64,000 bases of DNA, from the NCBI RefSeq assembly GCF_026213295.1, contig NC_079419.1, positions 27,771,139 to 27,835,138 on the forward strand, given 5' to 3'. A program made the position numbers and the translations under genes. Positions 5,193 to 28,517 of this stretch are shown in pieces; within the stretch, counting starts at the first letter, position 1; each line of letters opens with the position of its first letter. The DNA comes from Gadus chalcogrammus (lineage: Eukaryota > Chordata > Actinopteri > Gadiformes > Gadidae). Below the pieces are notes generated by a model. It made no database searches, was not told the origin of the DNA, and worked only from the letters and a program-made list of their open reading frames with translations.

Positions 5193-5303
5193 GTAAGCAG
5201 TGTGCTACAAATGGCATAGCGGCGATTATGACCCACACCACCCATAGCGTTCTCAAATGGAAAAAAAAAGAACATTCATCATATTCTAAAACTAGGTAAT
5301 GGC

Positions 5304-6943
5304 TTGTACACATTTATGCTAGAAAATAAGGAAATCAGTGCAGCCAAAACCAGTGGGCATATTTTCATTTCCGAGTTACCCAGACACTGCAAATTAAACA
5401 ATAAATTATTTAGTTTGGAATATTTTGATACACTCACTGGAAGTCTTGATCGAAAGGATGATTATGACGCTTCTTTGCAAAACATAGCCATGCCTTTAGA
5501 AGAGGCTATTCAGAAGACACTGCTGCAGACAGACACATGCTTGCTCAACATCCAAGAAAGTATCTGTGCCGTTTTCAAGGTCGAAACTGCTTTTGCAGTT
5601 TTCGATCCTCATTCTCGTAGTACTTGGGGTTCCGTTGCACCGGATGGAACCAGCATAGTAGCACACTATGCTACTGTGTATGAGTTATATGACCATATTG
5701 AGAACCTTGTCAATTCCTTATATCAAAATCATCCACATGCCCCAAACAAAGTGTTTGAAATCACTGGTGTGAAAGCTGTTGAGGTAAACTCACCATTTAC
5801 TGCTTTAACTGCACGGCCTGCAGCCAGCACTTCGGCACATGACGGCACTTTTGACACTGACAGTGGCTCGGATCTCTGTGTCCTTTCGGTAACAGACAGA
5901 AATTCCCTTGCAGTAAACACGTATTTTTCCCTTGAAACTGTGCAGCCTGTAGCAAACACTTCTACATGTGACACAACTGTAAACATTGACAGTGATCTTC
6001 CAATTCACACAAATGGTGCATCAGATGTCTGTTTAATTTCTGTATCAGATAGACCCAATATAATATTTACTGGAATGACATTAAGCGAAAAAAACAGGAT
6101 CTGCAACAAACTGAATATCGTACCAACTTTAGATCAAAATATTGTTGTACAACCCTTCGATATGGCACAGCCTGAACCATGCCATACAACATCCATTGAA
6201 GGTGACGGTAATTGTTTCTTTCGTTCTCTTTCGTCTGTAATTAGTGGTTGCGAGTCAAATCACAAGGCCTTTAGAAAGGCTGTAGTGAATCACATCTCAA
6301 ATAATCCACTTCATTACATTACTTGTTTAAGACAACAATTTGCTACTGTGGAGAAATATCTCAGGGACTCAAAATGAAATATGTTGGATCTTGGGCAACA
6401 GAGTTGGAAATACAAGCTTCTGCAGATTTGCTCTGTGTTGACGTTTACACATACAGTCAACAGAAATGGATTACGTTTACGGCGAACATTGAGCCGATTT
6501 CAAGAAAAGCTATATATCTGAAACACTGCAATGAACTCCATTATGAACCAATTGCATGTGTCAAAGAAAAAACCTCTCATTCATGCTTTAGTTTAACTAG
6601 CTTCTGTGAAACGACGCACAAAATGTCCAATGCAGACCTTGTTTCACCACGTAAAAAATGTACTGATAAATTAAAAATTCTAAGACAAAAGAAAACATAC
6701 GCAGAAGACACAGAACATAGGCAAGTTAAAAAGCTAAAAACACAACAAAGATATAATTGTGATAAACAGTATCAAGCAAATCGGAAAAATAGCAGTATCG
6801 AAAAATATGCTTATAATGAACTATTCAAAGAACAAGTAAAAAACAGCAGTATTGAAAAGTATGCTAATAATGAACCGTTCAAACAACAAGTAATAAACAG
6901 CGGTATCGAAAAATACGCAAACAATCCCATCGTAAACAGGTGA
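5304..6943 (+). pseudogene. Helentron N-terminal part: C76-like plus OTU peptidase domains and repeat linker, frameshifted
   Basis: The first frame (5304-6377) has a segment containing FDPHSR and APDGTSIV. This resembles the C76-type (tegument-protein-like) peptidase fold seen in fish Helentron proteins. It is followed by an OTU cysteine-protease start, EGDGNCFFRSL (Asp and Cys catalytic motif). Near 6373 a one-base loss in an A-run moves coding to another frame (to 6943). That frame supplies the rest of the OTU domain (GSWATELEIQASADLL, then NELHYEPI with the expected His). A basic linker follows, with three degenerate copies of a roughly 20-residue repeat around SSIEKYA. The N-terminal catalytic Cys of the C76-like domain is not visible, so the 5' end may be truncated. 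Confidence 0.72.
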
Positions 6944-7027
6944 TACAAAGAATTGTAATCAAATACAGAGAAGATCCGGCTTATAAGCCCTCTGTAATTG
7001 AAAGAAACTGTCAAAAGAGACTTCATC

Positions 7028-7545
7028 TAGGGTGACCAAACGTCCTCTTTTCCCAGGACATGTCCACTTTTTACGTCCCGTCGGGGGCGTCCGGGGGGGT
7101 TTTATTAATTGATGATAATGTCCGGTTTTCGGACATTATCTCGTTGCATATTTGTTTTTGCCTCGTCGCATATTTGTGTTTCTGGGTCTTTCACATAACC
7201 TACTAGTTATTACCATTGTATATGTCTATGGTTATTACGGCCTTCCAAGTTCTGGAAATGGTATCTCCCTTACGTTCCACCTTCTTGCGCGAGCTGACTG
7301 TAGAGAGAGTCTGTCATTGGGCGACCGATCTCAGGGTTGCCAGAGCCACGATAATGATCCTCCAAATACGACCATTTTGAGCCTTTGGTACGTTACTTTG
7401 CCATTTCCAATCTGGCAACATTGAGCACCTTGCCGCTTCCACTCTGTTTACAACAGCACATTACAAAAAAAAAGTTTTTTGTAAAAGTAAGTTCACGGAC
7501 GAACTAAAGAAAAAATACCCATGTTTTCGGGTACACCTGTGCGCA
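7028..7545. mobile_element. Insertion or replacement inside the Helentron, with a hAT-like terminus
   Basis: Helentron-like coding stops at about 7027. The next sequence, TAGGGTGACCAAACGTCC, resembles a terminus I associate with hAT-type repeats. A perfect hairpin lies at 7113-7139 (GATAATGTCCG, 5 nt loop, CGGACATTATC). A matching right terminus was not found, so the copy may be truncated. Rep coding is recognisable again from about 7546. The Cys-rich region expected between linker and Rep is absent. Confidence 0.4.
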
Positions 7546-10235
7546 TTGAATATTCCCTTTATGCGACTTGTGGCATTGCCACGAGGTTCTCAGAATTCTG
7601 TCCATGGGCCGGTGACTTGCGTTCCATCAAACAGCGATGTAGTCACTTCGGTTCTCCCTAGGCTAGAAAATCAAGATTTAATGATCCGAATAAAACTGAA
7701 AAGAAAACTTACTTATAAGGGGCATTATCAGTATCAATATGTGCACACTCAAAAAATCCAGAATGCGATAGCATGTTTAAAGGACATGAATAAATGGTAT
7801 AAGGACATAGACTTTAACGCAGAATGGGAAAATCCCTTGCCAGAAGATGCATGTTCTGTTTTGAAAGAATGCAACCCAGTTAATGACACTCCATCTGCAC
7901 CTAAAAGCAGTGACATTACAACTCAATCAGACCAGGTGTCGGATGATGAAGAAGCTGACCACATATATGAAACTCAAACACACGGGTTACTCTTGGACAC
8001 ATGTTTGCAACCAATTGATATCGCACAAGAAATATTTGATCAGCATTTCGAAAGTGTTTTATCAATAGCTCCAGCTGAGGGCAACAGTCCTGTTAGGCTG
8101 CTGACAGATAAGGGCAATGAAGCTAAATGTTTCCCAACTCTTTTCCCCAAAGGGACAGGTACATTCCATGATGCACGGCCCCACAGGCTCACTCTCAGTA
8201 GATACATCAACACACGAATCCTAAATGCTGATGGGAGGTTTAGCAGCAACTTGGACTACATTTTCTATGCTCAATATTTATCTGAGGTCAATCAGGTTGT
8301 TTCCAAGGTGTCCATAGCATTGAGAAAAGGTTACCATGCAGGGGAATCATTGGCTATAACTTCCGCCATGCTTTCAAACAAAGACTATGTACAAAATGTC
8401 TTAAAAACCGATCTGGGTTACAAGTTCCTTCAACCGATCCGAGGGACTCCAGTTTTTTGGCAAGGTGTACAGAAAAATCTATTTGCTATGGTTCGTCAGC
8501 TTGGTGTCCCTACTTGGTTCTGTTCATTTTCATGTGCTGATTTACGCTGGACTGAACTCATCGATGTTTTCATGAGACTACAGAAAATACAGGGAAATGT
8601 CAACGACCTGGACTGGTCACAGAGGTGCAATTTACTCAAAACTAATCCGGTTACCGCGGCAAGAATGTTCCAACACAGGTTTCAGACTTTCCTAAATGAC
8701 GTCATCAAGTCACCAGCTAACCCCATTGGTAAAGTTATCGACACATTTTTTAGAGTTGAATTCCAACAACGCGGCTCACCCCATACTCATTGTCTGTTCT
8801 GGGTAGAAATAGCACCGAAAATAGGCAAAAACACAGACCAAGAAGTCACACAATTTATTGATAAATACATCAGTTGTGAACTCCCGCAACCGACGCATTG
8901 CATGAAGTTGTTTCCAGCGTTCAAAAACACAGCTCCAAGCACTCAAAGAGTTGTAGGAAAAAAGGCACAACATGCAGATTTAACTTTCCACGTCCTCCAA
9001 GCAACCACACCTTTCTTTGTAGAAGTAAAACAGACGAGAACCAGGAGGTAACAGACGCTGATCCGATAGACATCTCTATATTAGAAATGCGAAAAGAAAA
9101 AGAGGTGGCTAAAAGTGTCATGACAAGGGTCAAACATGCTCTTTCAAGTCCAGACCTAACCTTCGACATTGTGGATCAGCTATTTGCTTCCATTAACATC
9201 ACCCAGGAAATGTTTGAAAATGCCTACCGATTGACAACCAATAAAAACGCGGTTGTACACAAACGCAACCCATCAGATGTTTACGTTAATCAATACAACA
9301 AAGACCTTTTGCGTTGCTGGGATGCCAACATGGACATACAATATGTCTGTGATGCTTTTGCTTGTGTAGTATACATAATATCCTACATCTCAAAAGCAGA
9401 ACAAGACATGGGCTTCTTGTTACAACATACTCAAAATGAAATGAAAAAACATGGAAATTTAGATGCCAAACAAACACTCAATAAGTTGGGAAGTGTCTTT
9501 CTCCACAATCGCGAGGTCTCAGCTCAAGAAAGTGTTTATCGAGTCACAAACATGCATCTCAACGAATGCTCAAGACTGGTCACATTTATCCCTACTGGTG
9601 AAAATACCGTCAGAATGAGTTTTCCTCTCAGTGTCATTCAAAGCAAAGCAGAACAGGGTGACACATCAACAGACTCGATATGGATGACGAGCATAACGGA
9701 CCGCTACAAAAACCGCCCCCAGGGCGCAATTTTTCATGATATTTGTATAGCCACATTTGCTTCAAAATACAGAGTTCTGTACGGGAAAGAGCAGCACAGC
9801 CAGGGCTCTGTTAAACTGGAAAATAACACTGGCTTTGTTAAGATGAGAACTAGGGGATCTGATGCTGTTGCTAGATACGCTCGTTTCTCACAAACCAAAT
9901 ATCCAGAAAAACACTACCAAAGTTTGCTACAATTGTTTTTGCCTCATTATTCAACAGATGAGATAAAACCTCCACCGTACAACAGTTATGAGCAGTTTTA
10001 CAGGACCGGTTCCATCACTAACAGTAGCAATACAACGCAAAGTGTTAAGGAAGTTGTAGATTTGAACAGATCCCTGTTTGAAGTAGATGCAGATGAGCTC
10101 GACAGATGCCAAGAGGTTGCAGGGCACCACGGGGCTCACGACGAGGCATGGGCAGACCTTTGCCCTGAATCTGAGTTGGAGCGATTAGAATGTCAGGAGG
10201 AGATGTCTAACAACAACGACACAAAATCCAAATGA
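7546..10235 (+). pseudogene. Helentron Rep (HUH endonuclease) domain, frameshifted
   Basis: The first frame (7546 to about 8897) contains a Helitron-type N-terminal region (LPRGSQNSVHGPVTCVP, then KRKLTYKGHYQYQ). It then has FPTLFPKGTGTF and the metal-binding HUH motif in GSPHTHCLFWV. A frameshift near 8895 moves coding to the 8898-10235 frame. That frame carries a Cys/His segment (SKHSKSCRKKGTTCRFNFP) and the Rep tyrosine region YIISYISKAEQDMG. The protein would nick and rejoin DNA strands during rolling-circle transposition. Stops and frameshifts mean no full-length Rep can be made from this copy. The frame shifts again around 10225, where the helicase part begins. Confidence 0.85.
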
Positions 10236-10242
10236 AAGAGAA

Positions 10243-11611
10243 GCCATACCGGACTTGCAGTCGGACACAAAGGCAACACTGTCTAAAGAATTTCCCACAC
10301 ACTCGATACAAAGAGCTGAAGGTCTGTCCATTATGCGCACGTTAAACGAACAACAGACTCAAATTTTTTACAAAATCCGCGCATGGTGCCTTGACAATGT
10401 CAATGGCAAAAACCCTGACCCGTTTCGCGTATTCATTTCAGGGGGAGCGGGCACGGGAAAGTCCCACCTGATTAAAGCTGTGTACTACGAGTCATGCAGA
10501 CTCTTTGCAAGAATGTCCATTAATCCAGACGACACTCATGTTTTGCTAGCTGCTCCTACAGGAGTAGCAGCATATAATATCAACGGAAGCACAATACACA
10601 GCACCTTTGCTATTACTACCACTGCCAAACTGCCATATCAACCTCTAGGAGATGAAAGAATCAATTCGTTAAGAGCCACCATGAAAGACTTACAAATACT
10701 CATTTTGGACGAGGTGAGTATGGTTGATCATAAAATCCTGACGTATGTCCATGGCAGACTACGACAAATAAAGCAAAAAGGAGATTATGCATTGTTTGGG
10801 AATGTATCAATCATGGCAGTTGGTGACTTCTTCCAGCTCGGCCCTGTAAAGGGAACACCTCTTTACCACGAGCAATTGGTGACCGATCTGTGGAACAATC
10901 ATTTCACTCACATTGAGTTGACAAAGATAATGCGACAAAAAAACAAAGAGTTTGCTGAAACATTAAATCGTCTCAGAAAAGGAGACAATCTTTACCAGCG
11001 AGATGAAGTCTTGCTAAGACAACGCGAGACCGGCGAGGGGGAACTGACACAGGACCTTCACATTTTCCCCACAAACGATGAAGTGGCAGCCCATAACATC
11101 GCCATGTTACACAAGACGTGTACGGATTTGGTGCAAATTAAAGCTCAAGATACTCAGAGAAACCCTACCACAGGACAAGTAACAAGAAAAAATAATCCAA
11201 AATTTGATAGTCAGATATGTTTAAGCAGAACGTTAATCGTTGGTCCATCAGCTCGCGTAATGCTCATCAAAAATAAAGATCTGTCAGATGGATTGGTCAA
11301 TGGTGTATTCGGTACCGTTTGCAAAATCACCTTTGAAGGGAACGTTCAGTTTCCCAAAACCATTTTGGTTAAGGACAATGGACAATGACACAATCGGCAG
11401 GAAACTGAGGAGTAGGTCTATATGCTTTGAGCCTCAATTTCAACAAGCAACACCCATAGATGCTGTGGAAGACAAAGTAATGACTGGTGGATCTAGACGC
11501 CAATTCCCGTTACGCCTAGCATGGGCCTGTACCATACACAAAGTTCAAGGTTTAACTTTAGAAAGAGCTGTAGTGTCCCTTAAAAGGATATTTGCAGCTG
11601 GCCAAGCATAA
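10243..11611 (+). pseudogene. Helentron Pif1-family helicase domain, frameshifted and cut by L2
   Basis: This superfamily 1 helicase has Walker A GGAGTGKSHLIKA, Walker B LILDEVSMVDH and motif III GDFFQLGPV. A further conserved block is FAETLNRLRKGD. A frameshift near 11383 moves coding into the 11288-11611 frame, which carries [18 protein letters not shown]. Reading then stops at the residues GQA, because the L2 LINE is inserted there. The rest of motif VI (YVALSRVT) is found on the far side of the LINE at 15324. No intact start codon separates this from Rep, as expected for one fused Rep-helicase protein. Confidence 0.88.
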
Positions 11612-14600
11612 TAATAATAATAATAATACATTTTATTTATAATGCACTTTATATTCAAGAATCTCAAAGTGCTTCAGAGAAAAAAATACCAAAAAAACTA
11701 TTAAAAAGGGGGATCCTCAAAGAAAGTTTAGCTAAATGCTCTTTTAAAGAGATGGGTTTTGAGGTTCCGTTTAAAAAGAGCTGTAGTCTGTGGAGCCCTC
11801 AGGTGGTCAGGGAGGGCGTTCCATAGTCTAGGGGCAGCAGCAGAAAAGGCCCGATCACCCATGGTGCACAGCTTCGTATGTCGGGTTTGGAGGGTGTGAG
11901 TGGATCCTGAACGGAGTGTACGTGAGTTTGTCGGGGGGGTGAGGAGTTCCTGAAGGTAGAGGGGGGCAAGTCCGTGAAGGCACTGGTGGGTGAGGAGGGA
12001 GACCTTGTACTCAATTCTGAGTGAGACAGGGAGCCAGTGCAGTGATTTCAGGATGGGGGTGATGTGGTCATGCTTGCGCACCCTCATCAGGACCCTGGCA
12101 GCACTGTTTTGAATGTATTGGAGCCTCTGGATGCTCTTGCCAGGGATCCCAATGAGGAGTGCATTGCAGTAGTCCAACCTGGAGGAGACAAAGGCATGGA
12201 CGAGCTTCTCTGCATCAGCCAGGGTGAGTGATTGGCGGAGTTTGGCAATGTTCCTGAGGTGGTATAAAGCTGTCTTACAGAGGTGTTTGATGTGGGTGTC
12301 AAAATTAAGTTGTGGGTCCATTTTAACACCGAGGTTGGTGACGGATGTGGAAAGGGGGATGTTTTTGCCAGAGAAGGTGATATTGGTGATGGTGGGGGAG
12401 CGGAGCTGATGTGGCGTGCCAACAAGGATGGCTTCCGTTTTATGGCTGTTAAGTTGTAGGAAGTTGAGCTTCATCCACGCCTCTATCTCCTCCAGGCAGG
12501 TGGTCAGTGTGGATGTTGGCAGAGGGGCAGAAGAAGTGGGGGTTGTCCTGATGTAGAGCTGTGTATCATCAGCATAGCAGTGGTAAGACAAGCCATGCCT
12601 GCTAATGACACTACCCAGGGGGAGCATGTACAGTGAGAACAGTGTGGGGCCCAACACCGAGCCCTGGGGGACACCGCAGGTGACGTTGTTGGTGTGTGAT
12701 TTTGCTTTGCCCAGGGCAACGTGCTCAGTTCTGTCAGTGAGGTACGAGGTGAACCAGTTCTTTACATTTCCTGATAGTCCAATGGTGTATTGCAGGCGGT
12801 GAAGGAGAATATTGTGGTCGACCGTATCAAAAGCAGCTGTTAAGTCCAGGAGGATGAGGAGAGATGGGGAGCCGGTGTCTGCTGCCATCAGGAGGTCATT
12901 TGTGACCCTGACCAAGGCTGTTTCTGTACTGTGGCCATAGCGGAAACCAGACTGGAATTTTTCAAACAAGTGATGTTGTATGAGGTGATCCTGGAGTTGT
13001 GCTGCAACTGTTTTTTCCAGAACTTTTGACAGAAATGGGAGATTTGAGATGGGCCTGTAGTTGGAGAGGACTTCTGGATCAAGGGTAGGTTTTTTTAATG
13101 TTGGTCTGATGACAGCAGTTTTTAATGCAGATGGGATATGGCCGGCCAGGAGGGAGTGGTTAATGATATTGGTGATGAGTGGAGAGACAGCAGAGATGTT
13201 GGCCTTCAGCAGAGCTGTAGGGAAGGGGTCTAGTGCACAGGTGGATGGCTTCATTTTCCTGATGACGTCCTCCACCTCTTCCTTTGTGATGCTGGAGAAG
13301 GAGCAGAGGGTCTGGACAGAGTCAATCGGTGGGTCAGCAGTTTGAAGGGGCAGGGCAGTAGTGATGGAGAGGTGTGAGCGGATGTTATTCACTTTTTGTT
13401 TAAAAAAGTTGATGTGCATGTTGCACCTCTCCGTGGTGACATCAGATTGGGATGGTAAAGGGGGTTTGAGAAGGTGATGAACAGTTGAAAAGAGCTGTTT
13501 GGAGTTACCAGGGCTATTGTTGATTATTGCGGAATAGAACCTGGACCGTGCATTATTCAGGGCTTCAGCATATGCCCTCCCGTGTTCCCTGTATGCCTGT
13601 TTGTGAACGGTCAGACCAGAGGCCTTGAGTCGCCGCTCAAGGACACGCCCAGCAGCCTTCATTGTACGTAGTTCACTGGTGTACCAGGGTGCGGAGCGCG
13701 AGAAGGAGACTGACCTCGATGTTAAGGGGGCATGGAGATCCAGGAGACTGCTCAGGGACTGGTTGTATAAGTCCACTGAGTCAGCAAGAGAGAGGGAGTC
13801 AGTTGAGCCAGAGGAGAGATGTTGAAGGTCCAGGGCCAGGGCATCCATGTTGATATTTTTCACATTCCTGAAGTGGATCTGCCGCTTTGGTTTGGTGTGG
13901 GAGGAAGGAAAAGGGAGCTCCATTGACACAACTCTGTGATCCGAGACGCCAAGATCATAGACCTGTAGGTTGCTGATGGGGGCGGAGTTTGAGATGACCA
14001 GGTCAATTGTGTGTCCTCTGGAGTGTGTGGGGGCATCAACATGTTGTTGTAGGTTGAGGGAGTCTAGCAGCTGAAGAAAATCAGCAGCGGGCTGGCATGA
14101 GGGGGTGTCAACATGAATATTTAAATCACCCAGAATGATGGTATTGGCAGAGGTAGTACAGAGTGTTGTGAGGAGATCAGACATTTCCGGGATGAAAGCA
14201 GAGTTGGGTTTAGGGGGCCTGTATATGAGTAGAACAGTCATGGGATGGGGGGGCTTGCATGTGAATGCAAGACATTCAAAGGAGGAAGTTGTAGGCAGCA
14301 CCATGGGGGACAACTCCAGGTCCTGTTTGTGGATGACAGCTAGGCCACCACCACGTCCAGTTCTGCGGGCTGCCTCCAAGTAACTGTAGCCTGGGGGACA
14401 GGCTTCGTTTAGGGCAGAGTAAACCTCTGGCTGGTGCCAGGTTTCTGTTAGACACATGAAGTCAAGTCCTTTTTCCCTGATATGCTCTTCAATCAAGCTG
14501 GATTTATTATTCAAGGATTGAGTGTTGAAAAGTTCAAATTTAACCAGTGACTGTGGAGTTATTCTCTGTACAGGTCGCAGAGCCTTAAAATCCACTCCGC

Positions 14601-15320
14601 GCAGGTTGGAATCCACTCCATGAAATCTATCCAGCCGGGAGTGCGGGGATCTCGCGATGTTACGTCTTTTGCCCTCAGCCGTCTCAGCGGACCTAATGGA
14701 TGTGATGAAGCCGGCAGGCTGACCATAAATAAAGTTTCTCCCTGAGCCTCTGTGGATATATCGAGGTCTACGCAATAGTCCTAGCTGCTTAATGGTGGAA
14801 ATACAGGGTGGGATGGAGCGATTGTTGTACTTCAGCAGCTGTGGGGCGAAGTACGTCAACATCGAACCTGATGTTGAGTGATGTTTGCCTGTTAGCAGCT
14901 AGGTACGGACCCGACGCATCTGGGGAAGAGCTGGGAGGCAGTGCAGAAAATCCACGAGACAGTAGAGACAGCTTAGCAGGTTGACCAGGGCATATTCCTC
15001 ACCAGGATCGCCGAAAAAAAAACCGCCAGCAGTGACCAGGAAAATGTCACATCAGCTACTAGTTTTTAGCCGTTGTTTTTAGCCGTTACTAGGGAAACCA
15101 AAATAACAAGTGAGCTACACGGCTCTTCACAATAACACTGGAACCACTAAAGACAGTCCATAAGCTTGCTTTTCGTCGCTGATGTAGCTTGGGAACCAAG
15201 TAGAGATAATATGTCAACAAAAATCACTTTTTAAGTAAAATTGTTTGGAAAAGCGGCGAACAGACAGCGCCAGCGTCCTCTCCGTTTGTTGCCTAGATAC
15301 AACTTAATGCATATGCATAT
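11611..15320 (-). mobile_element. Near full-length L2 LINE inserted in the Helentron helicase
   Basis: The element runs on the minus strand. Its 3' tail is a (TTA)n-type microsatellite (plus strand 11609-11629), preceded by an L2-like 3' end. It carries one uninterrupted 1044-codon ORF and about 450 bp of 5' leader. The left flank keeps GCATA of the helicase codons, and the right junction has GCATAT repeated (15309-15326). This suggests a short target duplication of about 5-6 bp. The surrounding helicase reads straight across if the LINE is ignored, so the insertion is younger than, or at least later than, the Helentron copy. Confidence 0.88.
11728..14862 (-). CDS. L2 LINE ORF: endonuclease plus reverse transcriptase, apparently intact
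   Basis: This is a 1044-residue single-ORF LINE protein. The N-terminal region is short and basic (RRPRYIHRGSGRNF). The APE-type endonuclease lies at roughly residues 105-330, with ETWHQPE, GDLNIH and the SDHR signature. The reverse transcriptase lies roughly in residues 530-830, with SNYRPISNLPFLSK, LDLTAAFDTVDH, GVPQGSVLGPTLF and the catalytic YADDTQLY. The C-terminal part has SRLDYCNALLIG, RVLMRVRKHDHITP and LKSLHWLPV, which are typical of L2/CR1-group proteins. I see no stop, frameshift or missing catalytic residue, so it could still be active. There is no separate ORF1 in the leader, as in several fish L2 families. Confidence 0.93.
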   Translation of the reverse strand: MLTYFAPQLLKYNNRSIPPCISTIKQLGLLRRPRYIHRGSGRNFIYGQPAGFITSIRSAETAEGKRRNIARSPHSRLDRFHGVDSNLRGVDFKALRPVQRITPQSLVKFELFNTQSLNNKSSLIEEHIREKGLDFMCLTETWHQPEVYSALNEACPPGYSYLEAARRTGRGGGLAVIHKQDLELSPMVLPTTSSFECLAFTCKPPHPMTVLLIYRPPKPNSAFIPEMSDLLTTLCTTSANTIILGDLNIHVDTPSCQPAADFLQLLDSLNLQQHVDAPTHSRGHTIDLVISNSAPISNLQVYDLGVSDHRVVSMELPFPSSHTKPKRQIHFRNVKNINMDALALDLQHLSSGSTDSLSLADSVDLYNQSLSSLLDLHAPLTSRSVSFSRSAPWYTSELRTMKAAGRVLERRLKASGLTVHKQAYREHGRAYAEALNNARSRFYSAIINNSPGNSKQLFSTVHHLLKPPLPSQSDVTTERCNMHINFFKQKVNNIRSHLSITTALPLQTADPPIDSVQTLCSFSSITKEEVEDVIRKMKPSTCALDPFPTALLKANISAVSPLITNIINHSLLAGHIPSALKTAVIRPTLKKPTLDPEVLSNYRPISNLPFLSKVLEKTVAAQLQDHLIQHHLFEKFQSGFRYGHSTETALVRVTNDLLMAADTGSPSLLILLDLTAAFDTVDHNILLHRLQYTIGLSGNVKNWFTSYLTDRTEHVALGKAKSHTNNVTCGVPQGSVLGPTLFSLYMLPLGSVISRHGLSYHCYADDTQLYIRTTPTSSAPLPTSTLTTCLEEIEAWMKLNFLQLNSHKTEAILVGTPHQLRSPTITNITFSGKNIPLSTSVTNLGVKMDPQLNFDTHIKHLCKTALYHLRNIAKLRQSLTLADAEKLVHAFVSSRLDYCNALLIGIPGKSIQRLQYIQNSAARVLMRVRKHDHITPILKSLHWLPVSLRIEYKVSLLTHQCLHGLAPLYLQELLTPPTNSRTLRSGSTHTLQTRHTKLCTMGDRAFSAAAPRLWNALPDHLRAPQTTALFKRNLKTHLFKRAFS

Positions 15321-16132
15321 GCATATGTAGCATTAAGCCGAGTAACGTGTGAGGAAAACCTTATCATTCAAGACTACGCAGCCAAAGCCTTCTATTCGAA
15401 ACCAGACATCGACATTTCCCTGCAAAAAATGGAACCATTCATTGCAACTCCACCAGCAGAAATAACTTCAACCCTCAAAATATGCCTCCACAACATTCAA
15501 GGTCTATGTCAACACATGGAAGACCTTAAACATGACCAGAGAATCTTGAGTGCTGACATCATTTGCGTGACAGAAACATGGCTGGAACAAAACACCTCAG
15601 TCGATTCCATTGAAATGCCAGGTTGGACTTTTAATCACAAACTCCGGTCCCAATCCTACCATAACATGACCCAATTCCAAGACTTGGTAAACAAACGGCA
15701 CGGTGGAGTGGGCTACTACCACAAAGACCACATCACTTGTAACATTATACACATGCCATGCAGTGACTTGGAAGCCATCATGTTTAATGTTCAGCCTTTG
15801 AATTACAATTACATTGTGCTGTACAAACCGCCATCATATAAACTCGCCTTATTCAAACAAAATCTCGCTTTGGTAATGCAACACTTTAACCAACTTTCAG
15901 GAGAAAGGTAATTATGGGTGACTTCAACGACAATGCCCTTGTTTCTAAATCTGCAGAAAATTTCATGCAACAGCAAGGTTACACCCAAATTGTCTCTTCT
16001 CCAACAAAAGAAAACGACACAACAATTGATCACGTATACATTCGTGACATTAATCCCACTGATATCAAAGTGCAAATTCTGTCCACGTACTACTCCGATC
16101 ATGAGTGCCTCTGTTTAGATTTCCTTCTGTAA
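15321..16132 (+). pseudogene. Helentron C-terminal AP endonuclease domain
   Basis: After the LINE, coding resumes with the remainder of helicase motif VI (YVALSRVTCEENLIIQDY). It continues without a break into an endonuclease/exonuclease/phosphatase fold. Visible motifs are LKICLHNIQGL, ICVTETWLEQN and HGGVGYYHKDH. A one-base loss near 15905 then shifts the frame, followed by MGDFNDNA, TTIDHVYIRD and YYSDHECLCLDF, ending at the stop 16130-16132. This endonuclease tail distinguishes Helentrons from canonical Helitrons. The domain would be complete but for the frameshift. Confidence 0.83.
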
Positions 16133-17449: not shown

Positions 17450-18905
17450 TTGGGGCTATAACTCCCACACCGAACCTCTCACAGTCAAAACCTTTATATC
17501 CACAGGTTCACGGTAGCGTTTTGAACACATGCTTCGCGTTGTGCCGGCGAAACGCACATTTCTTGTCGCGTTGTGCCGGCGAAATGCACACTTCTTGGAC
17601 CCCTGCATAACTGCTTGCAGTTCTAGTTAGGGGTCCAAGCCAACAGGTTGGATCCCTATTGTTTTTGTAAGGATTATTATACTTCACGCCTTGAAAGTGG
17701 GACTACAGCCCAAACCGTAAATGGTGCACACGCGCCAATTGAATGACTAGAACCAGGTCCGGCACCGCTACTCAGATAACCAAATCCAGACATGCCGGCC
17801 ACTAGGTGGCGCTATACCAAGGAATACGCGTTTGGGGCTATAACTCCCACACCGAACCTCATACAGTCAAAAACTTGTACCCACATATGCACTGGAGTCT
17901 GCTGCATCTTTTGGCCTAGGCCACGCCCATTTGCGTCGATGAATGTTTTTCGCAAAATCGCGAAAACTGCAAAACTGTTTTTTCGCTACTCCTCCCACAT
18001 TTCTTGACCAATCAACACCAAACTTTGCACACAACATCTTCAGACGCACACGCAAAGAAATCATAGACACTTTTTTGATCCGACCTTCGACGACGAAACG
18101 GTAGCGTTTTGAATATTTGTTTATTAGCTAAATTAGACGTGGAAAATCAAAAATCCAAAAAAATCCAGAATTAGACATCGGATCAAGTCCAACTTTTAGA
18201 CACATGTCGGTGCTACCCTTAATGGCGTTCAATAAAAGAATCGGAATATTTCGCCATTAGGGGGCGCAATAAATGAGGAAATTGTATATCTTCTACAAAA
18301 TTTCGCCGCGAAAACACTACACTGACTTCTCGCTACTCCTACCACAGTCAAATCCTTTGTATCCACAGGTTCAGGGTAGCGTTTTGAACACATGCTTTGC
18401 GTTGTGCCGGCGAAATGCACATTTCTTGGACCCCTGCATAACTGCTTGCAGTTCTAGTTAGGGGTCCAAGCCAACAGGTTGGATCCCTATTGTTTTTGTA
18501 AGGATTTTTAGGGGTCCAAGCCAACAGGTTGGATCCCTATTGTTTTTGTAGCGATTCTTCTTATTAGGGGTCCAAGCCAACAGGTTGGATCCCTATTGTT
18601 TTTGTAAGGATTATTAGGGGTCCAAGCCAACAGGTTGGATCCCTATTGTTTTTGTAGTGTTTATTATTCTTCCCCCCGTGAAAGTGGGACTACAGCCCAA
18701 ACCGTAAATGGTGCACACGCGCCAATTACATGACTAGAACCAGGTCCGGCACCGCTACTCAGATAACAAAATCCAGACACGCCGGCCACTAGGTGGCGCT
18801 ATACCAAGGAATACGCGTTTGGGGCTATAACTCCCACACCGAACCTCCCACAGTCAAAAACTTGTACCCACATATGCACTGGAGTCTGCTGCATCTTTTG
18901 GCCTA
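17450..18905 (+). repeat. Tandem array of an ~840 bp repeat bounded by AGGGGTCCAAGCC and CTTGGACCCCTGC
   Basis: A partial copy ends at about 17625. One full unit spans about 17625-18462. Three very short copies follow that hold only the left end (GGGGTCCAAGCCAACAGG, near 18463, 18509 and 18568). A new unit begins near 18617 and is cut by a transposon at 18905. The outer blocks AGGGGTCCAAG and CTTGGACCCCT are inverted repeats of one another. Common internal blocks are GGCGCTATACCAAGGAATA, GTTGTGCCGGCGAAATGCAC and TTTCGCCATTAGGGGGCGC. I see no protein-coding content; the unit looks like a non-autonomous element amplified in tandem. Confidence 0.82.
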
Positions 18906-19060
18906 CACAGCAAAAATTGGAGTGTTGAATTTTCGGTGTTAAACATTTCTGAGTTGTTTTTCACTCCCAGAGTGTAATTTTAACACATTCTGATTTAAAT
19001 GGTGTTCAGAATTGGAGTTATATGACAGAGTTGATCACATCAGTGTTAACGCAACTCTGC
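18906..19060 (+). repeat. Left terminal and subterminal repeats of the CMC-like transposon
   Basis: It starts CACAGCAAAAATTGGAGTGT. Five or more variants of AGTGTT or GGTGTT with nearby AAC/ACTC occur within 150 bp. Such arrays are transposase-binding sites in CACTA elements (established); their role here is inferred. Confidence 0.68.
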
Positions 19061-19929
19061 AGAGATGTAATTAAAGGTTGGGCATGGAATTCTCTTTTTC
19101 GGCAATTTTTGCAAAATTACTTGAAATCCTTATCATAACCCACTTACAGACACTGAGTTAGAAGTATTGGCATGAAAATTAAACAAGTCAATCATCTGTG
19201 GAACGGGCAGGGCTCGAAAAACTCCAATGATTTCCAGAACCACCGAGTGGCATTGGAAGTTGTAAGTGCGTCAATCAAACGGTCGTACTGCACACCCCTC
19301 CCCCTTCGTGTATACCCAACCTTTAAGTTCCGCCCATGCATTTCACGTCTACGGTTGGAGACAGAGGAGGCAAGTCTGGACATTTTCTACCACTCATGCA
19401 ATACTACACAGTAAGTGCATTTAAGTCAAATTTACTGAAAAATCAATTTATGCTGTGTATTTCAGTGTGTTTAATGCCAGGACTGATCAGCAAATTGGTG
19501 CACTTGATTAGCCACTTAGCAGACTATGCTAATTGGCTAAGCTAACCACGTGTTACTAAAACCGTCTCCTATTTCATCAATGACGATTTAACAATTCACA
19601 TGCAAGTTTAAAGCGATAGAAAGACCAGCTTTATGATTTTTATTGTATAAATCTCGTTTGAGGCCGATTTTTGGGCTTCACTATGTTCATCGAAGGGGCT
19701 GCATGTCCGAACTTGTCCCTACACGCAGACGGGCGTTTCACGTGTCTATTTGTCGGTGTGACCGGTGTACCACTGTATTTGGTGACCCATCATCAGATTA
19801 TGTGACCTGCAGTGTTTTCGGAAAAGGTATTTTCGGATAATTTACTTAATTAAAAGTTTATAAGTATTTGAAGTACTAAGTTAAAGCACAAAATGGCTTT
19901 TCCCGCAGTCTGCCCATTCCCGCCGTCCG

Positions 19930-20100
19930 CCCATTCTGACACGCATCGTAACTAAATACATCTTTAAAATTCTACCTGCGTTCAAAACATTTAACATATC
20001 TACACACTTGTATCTTCAATAAAATAATTTATACTTTATTCAGAATCACGGTTTGAGTTCCATATCGCTTAGTTTTCAGTTGATGGCATTGGACAGTGAG
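19930..20100. repeat. Repeat related to the interior of the hAT MITE at 56.9-57.9 kb
   Basis: Blocks such as CTACACACTTGTATCTTCAA, TTCAGAATCAC and GCCCATTCTGA are shared with about 57040-57410. It lies in the first intron of the accessory gene, so an old hAT-type insertion is likely. Ends were not found. Confidence 0.5.
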
Positions 20101-20592
20101 AACGTCAATCAAACCGTCATACTGCACTCCCCCTTCCCCTCACCCGTGACCGCTTCGTGCACGTACTCAAAGCTCGTGACCCAGAGCAAGCTTCTGTTTG
20201 TTGTTATCCTGCGGTAGCTACTGGAGCTAGCTAACTAGCTAATCCACATTTGGACCTAGAACTAGAAGACAACCCTAAACTCCCACGAGCTAGCCTGGCT
20301 CGCTCTTGCGCATTTGTGTTCGCGCTTGTGCATGATTGTGCGTCCATGTACTTGGAATGGGTGGAGTCAGCGTTGAAGGAGAGGGACCATTCGAGTTGTG
20401 TGTTTTCAAAATCTGCTGGCGTTTCGCAAATCCCATATCCAACCATTAAAACTCAACTTCACAGTCGCACCAACGTGAACCGCTAGCCGTCATGTTTATT
20501 GTTTAATGGGAAAGAAGGGTCGCATGGACTATACGTCATCCAGCTCAGGTTGCGTAGCCGTGCGTGTGTCGGGTCATTAGCATCTGCACCGT

Positions 20593-20625
20593 GGCCTGAG
20601 CACACCTCCCAAGTGTGCTCAGGCC
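20593..20625. repeat. Perfect 13 bp stem hairpin
   Basis: GGCCTGAGCACAC, a 7 nt loop, then GTGTGCTCAGGCC. It lies in the intron or promoter region about 200 bp upstream of the first coding exon of the accessory gene. Confidence 0.85.
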
Positions 20626-20804
20626 AAGGAAGGGAAGTGGACTTGAGTACAGTTGATGCACTCACACTAGCCAAACAATCTAGACTTGAGCAAGGTACAG
20701 GTGTGAGATGCACCCTCACACACACACACATATTCTAGTTTTTACCGTTCTTCCATTTAAATGTTTATTTACTTTGTCAAACTTCCTTGCATGTCTCAGT
20801 AAAA

Positions 20805-23800
20805 ATGCTGGTCCAGGTGAGGTACGGCCAACAGCAGAAATATGTGAAGTTGGAGGAGGATGAAGGACGGTTTGACTTCCTGCAATTCCATGAAAAAGGT
20901 TAGCAAGGCTTAGGAAAAAGGTTTAAAACCACACCCATGTTATTTTAAATGCTCATTCTGTAAGCTCCGTAATGTTGTGCATTCTGATGCCTTTATCAGC
21001 CTCTTTTAAACTATAAATAGGGTTAAATCGAAAAGTCAGTTCTGCAATGTGTGCTTCATATGCCGCTTTTCCACCGCACATGTAGCTCGACTCGACACAA
21101 CACGACTCGACACGGTAGCAGCGCGGGTGCTTTTCCACCGCAAATAGTACCTCCGGGACGTGGGCGGGGTCGTCTGCGCGAAAGGGCCGTGACGTATTTT
21201 TGTACGCGACGCAAACAACACCTACGTAACCCACACATGGACAGAACCCACATAACAACAATGGAGAACATCGATGCGATGGTATTCGTGTTCGTATTAT
21301 TAGCTGGCATGTTGAAGAAGTGGAATATGTTGGCTGCGGCGCTACTATGGCTGTTCTATCGTTACCAGCATGGTTGCCATGTCGCTCTCGTGACTTCGTC
21401 ACACTCTCTGGCCAATCAGTGGCCGGCCGTCTGCCGACGTCACATTTTAGCATCGGCTCAGCCGCTTGGAACCTAGAGCGAGGCGGTACTAGAAAAAGCA
21501 GCCACTTGAGGTACTAGATCGCGGTGGAAACGCAAAAAAGGCGAGCTGAGTCGAGTCGAGTCGAGTCGTGTCGAGCTGGTACCATGCAGTGGAAAAGCGG
21601 CAATAGAGTGTAAAGCATAATATACACCAATACAGATAAAAAAAAAATGCCAATCATACATTTTTTAATTTGCCCTTAAGAGGGAGGGGGTTGTGAGGGG
21701 AAAATGCTCTAGGTCTATTGAATAATTATACAGTGCTGATATTTAATAGAAAGTTATTCGCTGTGAGGCAAGAAACACTGCTGACTTGAAAAGCACATTC
21801 AGTTTTATCTTATCTTTTCTAGTCATCGAGAGATTTTGCCTGCCCACTGATGCTAAAGTAACATACAAGGATGCAACAGGGACAGAAGTTGATGGAGAAA
21901 TATTCAGCGACCTCGTTGGACAAGGCAATGTGGTGCTGACAGTTTTCTCAGATCAGGGTGAGATATAAAGGCAGGCATAATTAAGCACTACACCTTACAG
22001 AATATAATTACTAACATGTTTTCTATTCCTTTAGAATTCTCTGACAGCTCTTATGTTCTGCTTCTGGGCTGTCTGACTCAAGCTTCAGCTCAAGTACATC
22101 AACTGTGAACATAGATGAGCTCTATAGCAAGAGACAAAGAATCGAGGATACACGTAATCGTGATGCTGCGTCTGCCAAACAGGTTTCTTAATACTTCTTA
22201 ATACATTTTTACACTCTTGAGTCTTTAGAAAAGCTTTTTATCCGCATGTTTGTTATTCTCATGTTTTTGTTTTTTATTAGTTGATTGAAGCTGTGCTGAG
22301 AGGCAAATCCGGAGGTGAAGAAGTACTACAGGAGTACCAAACAACAGAAACCCTGACAGATGCTGCAAGAAGACAGATGGTCAACATCCTGGTGGCTCAC
22401 ATGATTGACAATCATGGGTATGTTTCTTTCATATTGTCTTTATTTGTGCCAAATGACTGCATGGTCATTGTATTAAATGTACTCATTTACTAATTGAATA
22501 TCTCCTCTCAGGCACCTTCCCACTAAAGAAACCAGAGAGGATTATGCACATGGGATAGTGATGCTGTTCCCTTCCCTCAGGGATCCATATTCCAAGAAGG
22601 GATATGTAATAGTCATTATTATTGTTTACACTTTCATGTAATGATAAAAAACTGTGTGGATGACATTGATATTTGAATTCCGTGAGATTGCTCAGGAGCC
22701 TGGTATGACAACACATTTCATTTATTTTTCATTTCAGGAACACTTCTATGATTCTGCAAGCAGCACAGGATACATTTCTTGGCGTCTGAAAACAGTCCAG
22801 AGGAAGATTCGTCAAGGATCTGCAGTGCCACCAAATAGCGCTATTTGCTTTTCTCCAGGAGGCCCAAATTTCCAAAGAACTGTTCATGTTGAAAGGCAGC
22901 TTGATGGTGATGCTTGCCAAAAGGCCATGTCTTTGCTCAACCATACACCAGACAATTCCCTGATTTTCCAGAAGATAAGAGAGACCTTTCTGCACCGTAA
23001 GAAGCTCGTTAATGACCCAGGCAGAAGTGTTGATATCCTCTCCAGCTTCCCAAGATTCCTGGATACAAAGGGATTGGTAAGTTTGAGATGTTTTAGAATG
23101 GCTAGAAATTGTAAAGTATTTCCTGTAGTTGAATATCTTCTTTCTTAAAGATGGACCAAGACTTCACTCTCCTATTTGATGATGACACATCCTCCAGGCT
23201 TCTTCAGAAATGGGATTTGTTCTTCAAGCCAAATGTCATAAAAGAGGCTAAGCAGCTCACTTCAACACCAGAGTTGCGTCACTTGGTGCAGTCAGCAGAA
23301 AGTCCCCAAGGAGATGATCTTGATGAGGAAACAAGTGAGTTTTTGTTTTAATGCATTTGCTATAATTGCAGTTGAACTCTAACTGCAATATTTCCTTTGT
23401 TTATTCTGTGTATCTCTTGAGCGTTGATCAAGAGATACACTCATTTTTGGATAAATGTGACTAATAGATGGATGACTGTTTAAAACTTTCTCATAATGCC
23501 TCCTTGTTCTCATTCAAACTTGAAAAGTATTAAATTTGAAGTTTTCAGTTAATTATTTTGTGTCTCTTGGTCCTCAGCCTACGACCAAGAAATGGCCTCT
23601 CTGTTGTTGCTGTTACATCTCCTTCCACCACCTCCAGGGGGACTGAAGTCTCCAAAAATTAGTGCATCTGATGCACTTGAGAGACTTGTTGTCTTTCATA
23701 AGGTATTTATATTATTACGTTGATTATAATAATTGTCACGTCACCTTCTTAGCCACATGTAAATGAGGGTTGCTAAAAAATTGGATGGTATTTTAATTAA

Positions 23801-24268
23801 GTCTTCATTCCCATCCTGCACTAGCCAATGAGAAGATGTATGAATAATCACTTCCATAATGTCTTTTTCTCTGTGGCTGTACATAATTCTTGTGTCTAAT
23901 GTTCAGTTTTCATATTTCTACCCTAGTCATGCTGCAGTTTGGAGGAGCATCTCCGCAACCAGCAGGGTCGACAGCCATACCTCCTTGCAGTCGGGCGTCA
24001 GAAGAGCAAGATTGACAGCTTCTACATCACCATGGATAAACATCTCATCCCATGCAAGGCAATCCGCTTCCTCGGGGCATGCGATGAACTTTTCAAAGCA
24101 CATTTTGTGTTTAATTTGTCTTACGATGTGGCACTAGTGAATTTTTACACGTTCCTGCAGACAACAGTGTATAACATTGATGTGGGGAAAATGAAGGAGT
24201 CGCCCAGACTTAGAGAATTGAGAGCGAGACTGCTTAACCATCCAGTAGCACTTACACCCTGTGAATAA
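20805..24268 (+). CDS. Multi-exon accessory gene inside the CMC-like transposon (fish 'SAMD3-like' family)
   Basis: Coding exons with good splice sites are 20805-20898, 21823-21957, 22035-22182, 22281-22417, 22512-22605, 22738-23076, 23151-23334, 23578-23702 and 23927-24268 (stop). A non-coding first exon may end at 19410 (donor ACA|GTAAGT). The N-terminus (MLVQVRYGQQQKYVKLEED ... FSDLVGQGNVVLTVF) looks like a small ubiquitin/PB1-like fold. A Ser-rich linker follows, then a domain with HLPTKETREDYAHGIVMLFP and SSTGYISWRLKTVQRKIR. The C-terminal region is a conserved block (GRQPYLLAVGRQKSKIDSF, DELFKAHFVFNLSYD, YNIDVGKMKESPRLRELR). I recall similar fish proteins annotated as SAMD3-like, but I see no SAM domain. 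Exon 3 (22035-22182) needs a one-base shift to join its two halves, so the copy may be inactive. Confidence 0.68.
21061..21602. mobile_element. MITE with TGCCGCTTTTCCACCGCA ends, in an intron
   Basis: The left end TGCCGCTTTTCCACCGCAC mirrors the right end GCAGTGGAAAAGCGGCA. Inner sequences are also mirrored (GTAGCTCGACTCGACACAAC against GTCGAGTCGAGTCGTG). ATA flanks both sides, a possible 3 bp target duplication. It is about 540 bp with no coding content. Superfamily is uncertain. Confidence 0.72.
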
Positions 24269-24280
24269 GAAGCTATAACA

Positions 24281-26707
24281 ATGCTGACCTGTTTCATGTG
24301 TCAGAAAAATTATCCTAGCAGTCAGCAGTTGATTTCACATTTAAGAGTTGAACATGGTTACTATCCTGGACCCAAGTTCAAATTGTTTTGTTCTCAGCAA
24401 AGTTGTAGGCATCAGTTCCTGACATATGCAGGTTTTCGGAAGCACCTTAATAGTGTTCATAGCAATGTTCAGCAAATTGCTCAAACTGTTTCATGTTCAT
24501 TTAGTGAGTCAGTTGCTACTTCATTTCAGGCACATGCTTTGGAGTACCAATTTAACCCACAAAATCAATGTAGCTCTTCCAATGATTCAGGAATAACTAA
24601 AGATCCAACTAAAGAAATGTGTGCATCCATCGTGGCCAAATTACAGGGGAGTGGGATTTCCAACAGTTTGGTATCCTCAATTGTAGGAGATTTGGAGGAA
24701 CTAACAAGTGAGCTTCGCTCACAAGCAAAGCACACAGCTATTTCTGCTTTACCTATAACTGACCCCAACATATCTGTGATAAATGAATCTTTTAAAAATT
24801 ATGAAAACCCATTCACAAATTTGAATACAGAATGGAAACGAAATAAATACTTCAACCAAAAATGGGGCGTTGTCGAGCCAATAGAAATAACCCTGGGAGT
24901 GAGATATGACAACAGGAGAAATCCGAAATCTGGTGCTTATGATCAAGTACCTGTGAAGGATACTTTTATATATGTGCCGATTTTAGAAACATTGAAGTTC
25001 ATGGGCAGAAATCCAGACATTTGTGTTTTGCTAAAGAGAGAATATAGATCAGAGCCTGACACTTATACTGACTTCTTTGATGGAAGTTATTTTAAAACTC
25101 ACCCTTTGTTTACAGCTAATAGACATGCATTACAAATTCTACTATACTATGATGATTTTGAAACAGCCAATCCCCTTGGCTCCAAACGAGGAATTCACAA
25201 AATTGGCTGTCTTTATTTCGTTTTAAGAAACTTGCCCCCAAAATTTAATTCGGTTTTGATGAACATTCACTTGGTATCCCTTTTTCACACGCAAGATCTG
25301 CGCAAATATGGTTTTGATGTTATACTAGAACCGTTGATAAATGATATGAAAAAACTAGAAAGCCAAGGGCTAAGTCTTCCGTTTTCGGATGAGCAGGTAT
25401 ATGGTACAATCTGTCGGATCACTGGAGATAATTTAGGGATGCACACAATTCTTGGTTTTAATGAATCATTCAGTAGCCGTCATTTCTGTCGCCTTTGTTT
25501 GATTGAGAAGAATGACTGTCAAACGGTATTCAGTGAGGATGATCCTAAGGTGATCCTTCGTGGAAAAGATGTGTTTGAAATGCATTGCCAGTCTCTCCAG
25601 GAAAACCCACAATTGAAGTCAATGTACGGATTGAAAAAAATATCGACACTTAATTCATTGATGTATTTCCATGTTTGTAATAACTATTTTATTTGATATC
25701 ATGCATGATCTTCTTGAGGGAGTGGTTCAGTATGAGATAAAATTGCTTTTTGGTTACCTCACACAACACTTTGTGTCAGAACAGGACTTGCTTTCCAGAA
25801 TATATGGATTTGATTATGGATTTCTAGAACGAAAAAATCGTCCTAAGATTATTTTGGATAGTGCTGGCAATGGCATTAGTTTGAATTCTATTCAAACATT
25901 ATGTCTTGTTAAAAACATCCCACTGTTGTTTGGTGACATTATTCCTGCAGGAAACCAAAACTGGAATTTGTTACTGTTGTTACTTAAAATAATGAACATC
26001 GTTTTTTCACCTTCTCTCACTCTAGGTATGACAATATATTTGAAGCATTTGATTATTGACCACCACAAGTTATTTAAGCAATTGTATCCACATAGAAACT
26101 TGATACCTAAGCATCATTTTATGATCCATTACCCATCTTCTATAAGGAAAATTGGCCCCTTATTGCATACGTGGTGTATGAGGTTTGAGGCCAAACACAA
26201 GATGTTTAAAAATTAGAAAAAAACATAACTAAATCACTCGCTAAAAAGCATCAGATGGCCATTGCTTCACACTGGGAAACCTTCCCCCTCAAACAAAATG
26301 AGTATGGGCCAATTAAATCTTATCACTTCGTAGATGAGAATGTGGTCAACAAGGAAATGCTTGAAACGATCTTGTCAAAAGATGTTTTCTCAACAAGTTG
26401 GGTTAAAGTTGATGGTATCGAGTATAAAGCGGGATTAGTTATTTGCAGTGCAATGGAGGAAGACATGCCAGTCTTTTATCAAATAAGTGAAATACTTTTG
26501 GTTGGAGATCACGTTATTTTTTTGTCTAATAAGCTATTTACAGAGAATTTTGATGAACATCATCATGCATTCAAAGTTGTGCGAAGTGTGGAAAGATGTC
26601 TTTTAAAAATGTCTGAGATTAGATTTGATAAACCTTTTGATATTCAAAGCTCATACAATGTTTTAGATGAAAGTTTGTATATTATACCTTCATTCACAAT
26701 GTTGTAA
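24281..26707 (+). pseudogene. Transposase of the CMC-like element, frameshifted twice
   Basis: The first frame (24281-25696) begins 12 nt after the stop of the accessory gene. It has two C2H2-type fingers (CFMCQKNYPSSQQLISHLRVEH, written in two parts: CFMC and HLRVEH; then C...C...H...H near residues 35-60). Next comes a transposase-like block: YYDDFETANPLGSKRG, HKIGCLYFVLRNLPP, TGDNLGMHTILGF, and HFCRLC. A frameshift near 25685 leads to the 25671-26216 frame (IMHDLLEGVVQYEIK, PKHHFMIHYP, WCMRFEAKHKMFK). A second near 26210 leads to the last frame (HQMAIASHWETFPLKQ to the stop at 26707). AATAAA follows at about 26736. This style of protein is widespread in fish and I associate it with EnSpm/CACTA-type transposases; the exact family needs a profile search. 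Confidence 0.68.
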
Positions 26708-26869
26708 TTAAACTGACTGCAAGGAAGAATTGGCACAAATAAATTATTTGAAATGATATTGTTTATTGTAATTAATTGATATTAACATAAGTATATATTA
26801 AATTAATGAATAAATATTTAATAAATGTATTTTACATTTTTTCAGTGTAGATAATTTAAATTTAGGGAG

Positions 26870-27107
26870 TGAAATTAACACTACCCAAATAGTTAAAACG
26901 TACTTTGAGCAGTGTTAGTTGTCAAATCCCTTAGTGTTACTTTAACTCTGTTTTGCGAGTTAAAGAAGGAACTCTGGCAGTGTTAAATGTTTAACTATTT
27001 TGAAAGTGTTAATTTAACTCTGGAGAGTGTGGAGCTATATAAACCCTCAAAAAGTGTTAAAATCAACTCTGTGAGAGTTAATTCAATGGACTGGACTTTT
27101 TCCTGTG
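26870..27107 (+). repeat. Right subterminal and terminal repeats of the CMC-like transposon
   Basis: At least six AGTGTTA-type motifs lie between 26912 and 27060, with intervening AACTCTG and GAGTTAA words. The end reads CTTTTTCCTGTG, the inverted match of the left end. The density matches the left side. Confidence 0.7.
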
Positions 27108-28517
27108 TAGGCCACGCCCATTTGCGTCTATGAATATTTTTCGCAAAATCGCGAAAACCGCAAAACTGTTTTTCCGCTACTCCTCCCACATTTCTTGACC
27201 AATCGACACCAAACTTTGCACACGAAATCTTCAGACGCACACGCAAAGAAATCGTAGGACAGTTTTTTGATCCGACCTTCGACGACGAAACGGTGGCGTT
27301 TGGAATATTGGTTTATGAGCAAAATTAGACGTGGAAAATCCAAAATACAAAAAAATAAAGAATCAGACAACGGATCGAGTCCAAATTGTACACACATGTT
27401 GGTGCTAACCTTAATGTCGTTCGATAAAAAAATCGGAACATTTCGCCATTAGGGGGCGCCATAAACGAGGAAATTGTATATCTTCTACAAAATTTCGCCA
27501 CGAAAACGCTACACTGGCTTCTCGCTACTCCTACCACAGTCAAATCCTTTGTATCCACAGGTTCAGGGTAGCGTTTTGAACACATGCTTCGCGTTGTGCC
27601 GGCGAAATGCACACTTCTTGGACCCCTGCATAACTGCTTGCAGTTCTAGTTAGGGGTCCAAGCCAACAGGTTGGATCCCTATTGTTTTTGTAAGGATTTT
27701 TCTTTTCATACTACCTCCCCCTAGAAGTGGTACCACAGCCCAAACCGTAAATGGTGCGGACACGCCAATTGCATGACTAGATCCAGGTCCTTCACCGCTA
27801 CTCAGATAACCAAATCCAGACACGCCGGTCACTAGGTGGCGCTATACCAAGGAATACGCGTTTTGGGCTATAACTCCCACACCGAACCTCCCAGAGTCCA
27901 AAAACTTGTACACACAGATGCACTGGAGTCTGCTGCATCTTTTGGCATAGGCCACGCCCATTTGCGTCAATAATTTCTTTTCGCAAAAAAGGCGAAACTG
28001 CATTTTCGCTACTCCTCCCACATTTCTCGACCAATCAACACCAAACCTTGCACACGACATCTTCAGACGCACACGCAAAGAAATCCTACATTACTTTTTT
28101 GATCCGACCTCCGATGACGAAACGGTAGCATTTTGAATATTTGTTTATTAGCTACCTTTTACATCGAACAGCAAAAATTCAACAAATACCAAAATTAGAC
28201 ATCGGATCAAGTCCAAATTTTTGACACATGTCGATGCTACCCTTAATGGCGTTCGATAAAAAAATCGGAAAATTTCGCCATTAGGGGGCGCAATAAACAA
28301 GGAAATTGTATATCTTCTACAAAATTTCGCCGCGAAAACGCTACACTGACTTCTCGCTACTCCTACCACAGTCAAATCCTTTGTATCCACAGGTTCAGGG
28401 TAGCGTTTTCAACACATGGTTCGCGTTGTGCCGGCGAAATGCACATTTCTAGTCGCGTTGTGCCGGCGAAATGCACACTTCTTGGACCCCTGCATAACTG
28501 CTTGCAGTTCTAGTTAG
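27108..28517 (+). repeat. Continuation of the ~840 bp repeat array: interrupted copy plus one full copy
   Basis: Positions 27108 to about 27651 complete the unit split by the transposon. A further full unit runs from about 27652 to 28517, ending GCTTGCAGTTCTAGTTA. Internal blocks match the 17.6-18.5 kb unit with scattered substitutions. Together with the left part, at least three units and several end fragments are present. Confidence 0.82.

Follow-up and report, generated by a model that had tools for sequence, protein, structure and literature searches.

A broken transposon of Gadus chalcogrammus carrying a predicted RAG1-fold transposase and a probable second protein of its own

The stretch of Gadus chalcogrammus DNA analysed here (NC_079419.1, positions 27,771,139 to 27,835,138; 64,000 nucleotides, hereafter the window) holds an 8202 bp element on the + strand (18906-27107), bounded by the inverted ends CACAGSAAAAA and inserted within a tandem repeat. 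Two genes lie inside it on the same strand: an accessory gene of nine coding exons (20805-24268) and an intronless transposase gene (24281-26704), which starts 12 bp past the accessory stop codon. A first-pass annotation, made from the letters alone, had described the locus as a CACTA/CMC-like transposon with unusual cargo; here, we examine its boundaries, both genes and their relatives.

Boundaries and insertion site

Exact matches to CACAGSAAAAA occur only twice in the window, at the two element ends and in inverted orientation, in agreement with the first-pass annotation. The short end motif alone is little proof, as 10 matches are found against 5.17 expected in the 64-kb window when one mismatch is allowed; the extended arms (18899-18923 and 27090-27114) are 84 % complementary. 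The comparison with the empty site, by contrast, is strong evidence for the insertion boundaries. An unbroken repeat copy is identical to the 280-bp left flank at 267/280 positions and to the right flank at 257/281 columns, and the two flanks fused with a single TA match this empty copy at 115/120 positions, indicating that the target duplication is TA, as had been proposed; both boundaries and duplication rest on one element copy. The tandem array that houses the transposon and supplies the empty site lies at 17500-28000, with a copy-to-copy spacing of ~830-990 bp.

The motif GWGTTAA is confined to the extremities of the element: all 11 of its sites fall inside the outer 300 bp on either side, leaving the inner 7,602 bp empty. 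It occurs 20 times in the remaining 55,798 bp of the window. In 2,000 dinucleotide-shuffled versions of the ends the count never exceeded 4, although these figures overstate the surprise since the motif was picked after inspection of the ends. Elsewhere in the 5′ noncoding part, a 46-bp stretch is duplicated at 78 % (19262-19307 and 20096-20141), possibly representing a duplicated promoter segment, and positions 19949-20091 resemble 57050-57211 (72 % identity, 162 columns; second piece at 57340-57396), a likeness due either to an unrelated repeat common to both places or to an old remnant of a related element.

The accessory and transposase genes

All eight accessory introns are of the GT...AG type and the reading frame is intact but for one break, inside exon 3. 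The sequence TTGCATGTCTCAG immediately upstream of the ATG is acceptor-like, so an additional noncoding first exon is likely to lie upstream. Isoform X3 of NCBI LOC130386969 (G. chalcogrammus, P0024, 337 residues), which starts within exon 4 and uses the alternative exon-9 acceptor, was rebuilt letter for letter from exons 4-9; hence, public annotation treats the accessory gene of this element, or of an identical copy, as a host gene, a fate that the first-pass annotation had foreseen for such genes in fish. A block with 18-bp inverted ends within intron 1 is probably a nested small transposon.

The accessory N-terminus is predicted to adopt a ubiquitin-like superfold, with PB1 and CIDE-N nearest by a small margin (model of relative P0016), lending support to the earlier suggestion of a ubiquitin/PB1-like domain. 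It retains one basic and one acidic cluster, as do domains that assemble head to tail. The profile check proposed beforehand gave a mixed return: at E ≤ 1, Pfam CIDE-N was matched by 8/55 accessory members and PB1 by 4/55, and neither profile matched P0016, P0004 or the window's own N-terminal domain. No enzyme, chromatin-reader or DNA-binding fold was recognised in the accessory, the core of which was not folded and searched by itself; Myb/SANT was not among 25 of the 33 Pfam families matched by the 55 members. A fold search in viral models returned nothing under E 0.001, and scans confirmed no relatives in viral contigs or prokaryote genome contigs. P0121, P0016 and P0164 matched nothing in NCBIfam and P0095 had a single match far below the cut-off, and Rfam returned nothing at gathering thresholds.

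The transposase can be followed as one protein over three overlapping open pieces, indicating that its frame is broken twice. The two genes of the first-pass annotation are therefore present, although neither is intact in this copy. A RAG1/Transib-type fold is predicted (model of relative P0121), and the family displays a DDE arrangement with C(2)C and H(3-4)H between the second D and the E, motifs also found in the window pieces. The second D, both C, both H and the E are kept in 59/59 aligned relatives and the first D in 58/59, with one gap. Similarity to Transposase_21 (tnp2) was detected at E ≤ 1 in 28/59 members (best 6.5e-4; the two scores given, 16.9 and 14.4 bits, are both under the cut-off of 28.6), alongside weak similarity to DUF4218. 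Fold and catalytic motifs favour the CACTA/CMC-like reading put forward earlier. At E ≤ 0.001, the transposase family has 372 database matches and the accessory family 490.

Table 1. Features of the element and its target site (positions in the window)
Feature	Position	Strand	Basis
Whole transposon	18906..27107	+	Exactly matching inverted ends; TA flanking both; uninterrupted repeat copy elsewhere in the window
Target site duplication TA, left copy	18904..18905	.	Empty-site comparison
Target site duplication TA, right copy	27108..27109	.	Empty-site comparison
Unbroken repeat copy (empty target site)	17905..17930	.	Flank comparison
Left terminal inverted repeat CACAGCAAAAA	18906..18916	+	Exact CACAGSAAAAA match
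Right terminal inverted repeat CACAGGAAAAA	27097..27107	-	Exact CACAGSAAAAA match
Left subterminal GWGTTAA repeats, 3 sites	18936..19049	.	Motif count
Right subterminal GWGTTAA repeats, 8 sites	26875..27081	.	Motif count
Accessory exon 1 (first coding; with exon 2 codes PB1/CIDE-N-like domain)	20805..20898	+	Limits from model of relative P0016
Insertion-like block, 18-bp inverted ends, in accessory intron 1	21061..21602	.	Inverted repeats
Accessory exon 2	21823..21957	+	
Accessory exon 3, one frame break	22035..22182	+	
Accessory exon 4	22281..22417	+	Also public gene model
Accessory exon 5	22512..22605	+	Also public gene model
Accessory exon 6	22738..23076	+	Also public gene model
Accessory exon 7	23151..23334	+	Also public gene model
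Accessory exon 8	23578..23702	+	Also public gene model
Accessory exon 9, TAA stop; alternative acceptor gives exon start 23907	23927..24268	+	Also public gene model
Transposase piece 1: C2H2 fingers, first D (25151-25153), second D (25427-25429), C(2)C (25487-25498)	24281..25693	+	
Transposase piece 2: DIMHD (25695-25709), H(3)H (within 26109-26132), E in RFEAKH (26181-26198)	25662..26213	+	
Transposase piece 3: BAH-like C-terminal domain	26210..26704	+	Domain from model of relative P0121

A few gene models from other fish show the same order of the two genes. Three of 240 retrieved proteins match both: the Oreochromis niloticus model continues past the accessory, over a few residues, to the beginning of the transposase; in the Gouania and Menidia models the accessory is fused to later parts of the transposase. 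By eye, the Oryzias latipes model P0021 ends in the transposase start, and in Oryzias javanicus the two genes bear consecutive locus tags. By hand count among the matches listed (120 for each gene), 17/24 species with a transposase match also have an accessory match; among these same matches, Fundulus heteroclitus, Triplophysa rosa, Coilia, Ctenopharyngodon, Pangasianodon and Alosa have the transposase only, and Conger has the transposase and the ten-species protein described below. Merluccius is joined at 100/100 by Engraulis in one gene tree and by Coilia in the other, both of them anchovies, a pairing that may be a small sign of a shared history of the two genes. CACTA elements carry subterminal repeats and usually two open reading frames (PMC8978399, in excerpt). 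Given this plan and the recurring gene order, the accessory looks like a core gene of the element, and its earlier description as unusual cargo is probably wrong.

Relatives of the accessory protein

Relatives of the accessory core also occur behind a different N-terminus, lacking the PB1-like domain, in proteins of 626-662 residues from eel-group and bonytongue fishes; by eye, a CxxC pair comes after a coiled coil in this N-terminus. A search with Anguilla residues 1-190, which reaches only relatives with short exact words in common, returned 10 proteins from 478 candidates, forming one 90 %-identity cluster per species in 10 species (Anguilla, Conger, Synaphobranchus, Gymnothorax, Aldrovandia, two Albula, Megalops, Scleropages and Arapaima). 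The clade is supported at 100/100, with the bonytongue pair (100/100) separate from the eel-group rows (93/86), a split that we take to agree with the species tree. One cluster per species and a gene tree that presumably follows the species tree are marks of a host gene, and the Scleropages and Anguilla proteins are 70.1 % identical, N-terminus included. The simplest reading of these sequences is that the ten-species gene would be a domesticated derivative of the accessory core. The alternative is that the transposon captured a host gene, the accessory tree having no outgroup and being midpoint-rooted for drawing only. The first-pass annotation had held that accessory copies at conserved synteny and lacking flanking CACAG ends would count against the transposon; a seemingly vertical relative of the core does exist in the 10 species but lacks the PB1-like N-terminus, and it is best read as a derivative rather than as evidence against the transposon.

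We rejected the idea that the whole accessory family is a host gene. Distant fishes form strongly supported pairs in the accessory tree (Gadus-Carassius, Engraulis-Merluccius, Simochromis-Paramormyrops), and identity between the Paramormyrops and the Simochromis copy reaches 87.5 % over 526 residues, against 70.1 % for Scleropages and Anguilla; the identity argument is weakened by transposon pairs that score low, such as Polypterus-Danio (68.7 %). Horizontal transfer is the likely explanation for the mixing of distant fishes, and contamination of single assemblies may lie behind some of the mixed pairs. Many fish hold relatives whose identity to one O. javanicus copy is 45-89 % (55 rows).

A cyprinid clade of accessory-like proteins (100/100; P0120, P0110 and P0119) includes a named zebrafish gene, sb:cb449 (P0120), and represents either a gene of a transposon or another domesticated gene; none of the papers searched pairs 'cb449' with 'zebrafish'. 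Vertebrate 'SAMD3-like' proteins presumably resemble the accessory core, and nothing relevant was found on SAMD3 together with a transposon. Among the papers searched, no description of the accessory was found by title or the beginning of the abstract, although Repbase may contain one. In the Hydra genome, CIDE-N and RAG1 Pfam domains are over-represented along with transposase domains (PMC7642931, in excerpt), and the Hydra CIDE-N proteins may also be transposon accessories. Proteins of both families bear host-gene names (P0006, P0080, P0187 and P0198), namely Replication origin-binding protein (Dissostichus), p24 family protein gamma-4, alpha-tectorin and RAD51-associated protein 1 (Sarotherodon).

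Elsewhere in the window, long + strand frames at 5232-11388 and 15297-15911 appear by eye to belong to what we take to be a Helitron-type element, with presumed Pif1-like helicase (10189-11388), OTU-like (~5232-6377) and endonuclease-like (15297-15911) parts; a frame that we likewise take to be LINE-like (11728-14898, - strand) splits them.

Interpretation and comparison with known systems

The EnSpm/CACTA-Mirage-Chapaev-Transib-RAG1 (CMCT) clade is marked by CA..TG ends and target duplications of 2-5 bp, and the element displays both (CACAG..CTGTG and TA, from one copy). We regard it as reasonably probable that the element is, in full, a broken copy of a CMCT-clade cut-and-paste DNA transposon with two genes and a TA duplication, in which the accessory is the transposon's own second protein. 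In such a system, the N-terminal C2H2 fingers of the transposase would bind the inverted ends, its RAG1-like core would pair and cut them, with excision and strand transfer at TA, and its C-terminal BAH-like domain may contact chromatin. The accessory could assemble on the subterminal GWGTTAA arrays, head to tail through its PB1/CIDE-N-like domain, gather the ends for the transposase and regulate the element; our model for this role is TnpA of the maize En/Spm pair TnpA/TnpD. As the transposase ATG follows the accessory stop by 12 bp, a single transcription unit may serve both genes, with the transposase made by alternative splicing (candidate acceptor 24159). The accessory core, under its new N-terminus, would later have become a host gene in the eel-group and bonytongue fishes. 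The wider proposal, that vertebrates possess a two-protein RAG1-fold system apart from RAG in which a PB1/CIDE-N-type factor coats subterminal repeats and joins the ends, and that the core of this factor, its assembly domain swapped for a new CxxC-pair N-terminus, was domesticated as a host gene that has been kept since before the eel-group/bonytongue split, is offered only tentatively.

Were the accessory instead captured host cargo, derived from the ten-species gene or its ancestor, acquired by a single CMCT transposon and playing no role in transposition, its nine-coding-exon, host-like structure beside an intronless transposase would be readily explained, as would the host-gene behaviour of its relative in 10 species, and the unrooted accessory tree leaves room for such a capture. 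We nevertheless consider this unlikely: relatives are present in many fish and several species share the gene order, which suggests an old association that has been maintained; a layout of two open reading frames is normal for CACTA (PMC8978399, in excerpt); and the ten-species gene nests within accessory diversity, on a midpoint root used for drawing only. Another role for the accessory, as mainly a silencing-escape or chromatin factor directed against host defence rather than acting on the ends, would parallel the proposal for fungal TET/JBP genes, which 11 transposon lineages encode (PMC12730594, in excerpt), and would suit a core without a recognised DNA-binding fold; the same searches, in which the core was not taken by itself, recognised no enzyme or chromatin-reader domain, and we doubt this role also. 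Membership of a different two-gene superfamily whose duplications are TA or 3 bp, either PIF/Harbinger-like or PHISTA, some with a Myb/SANT second gene, seems highly improbable. The element has two genes and a TA duplication, as PHISTA does (PMC12730594, in excerpt), but the predicted RAG1/Transib fold, the C(2)C...H(3)H motif and the CA..TG ends argue against this placement, as does the lack of Myb/SANT among the Pfam families noted above.

If the accessory is the transposon's own second protein, hundreds of database proteins of both families gain a common explanation, many of them uncharacterized among the matches listed and a few bearing unrelated host-gene names. The element would add to the vertebrate cases of RAG1-fold transposases with a travelling partner protein, bearing on partner-protein function, and would supply a candidate instance of domestication of the partner rather than of the transposase.

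In the ProtoRAG and RAG1-RAG2 systems the target duplication is 5 bp, whereas the element duplicates TA, and the accessory's listed matches do not include RAG2. Relative to known PB1 and CIDE-N/CAD domains, the accessory domain is too diverged for a secure Pfam assignment, with other ubiquitin-like domains scoring nearly equal, and it resides in a transposon protein. The element is strictly not CACTA, by its end letters and duplication length: its ends read CACAG and not CACTA/TAGTG, and TA is 2 bp (one copy) where the CACTA duplication is quoted as 3-bp (PMC4158355, in excerpt). It differs further in the PB1/CIDE-N-like domain and nine coding exons of the accessory and in the BAH-like domain of the transposase. 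It resembles EnSpm/CACTA elements (PMC8978399, in excerpt) in its CA..TG ends, in subterminal arrays at both ends and in pairing a transposase with a second protein, in the window and in other fish gene models; the Transposase_21 and DUF4218 similarity is weak and, for the two Transposase_21 scores given, under the cut-off. Compared by description only, the EnSpm-like transposons termed ESTA, described from fungi, share with this fish element both the CMCT motifs and the TA duplications (PMC12730594, in excerpt).
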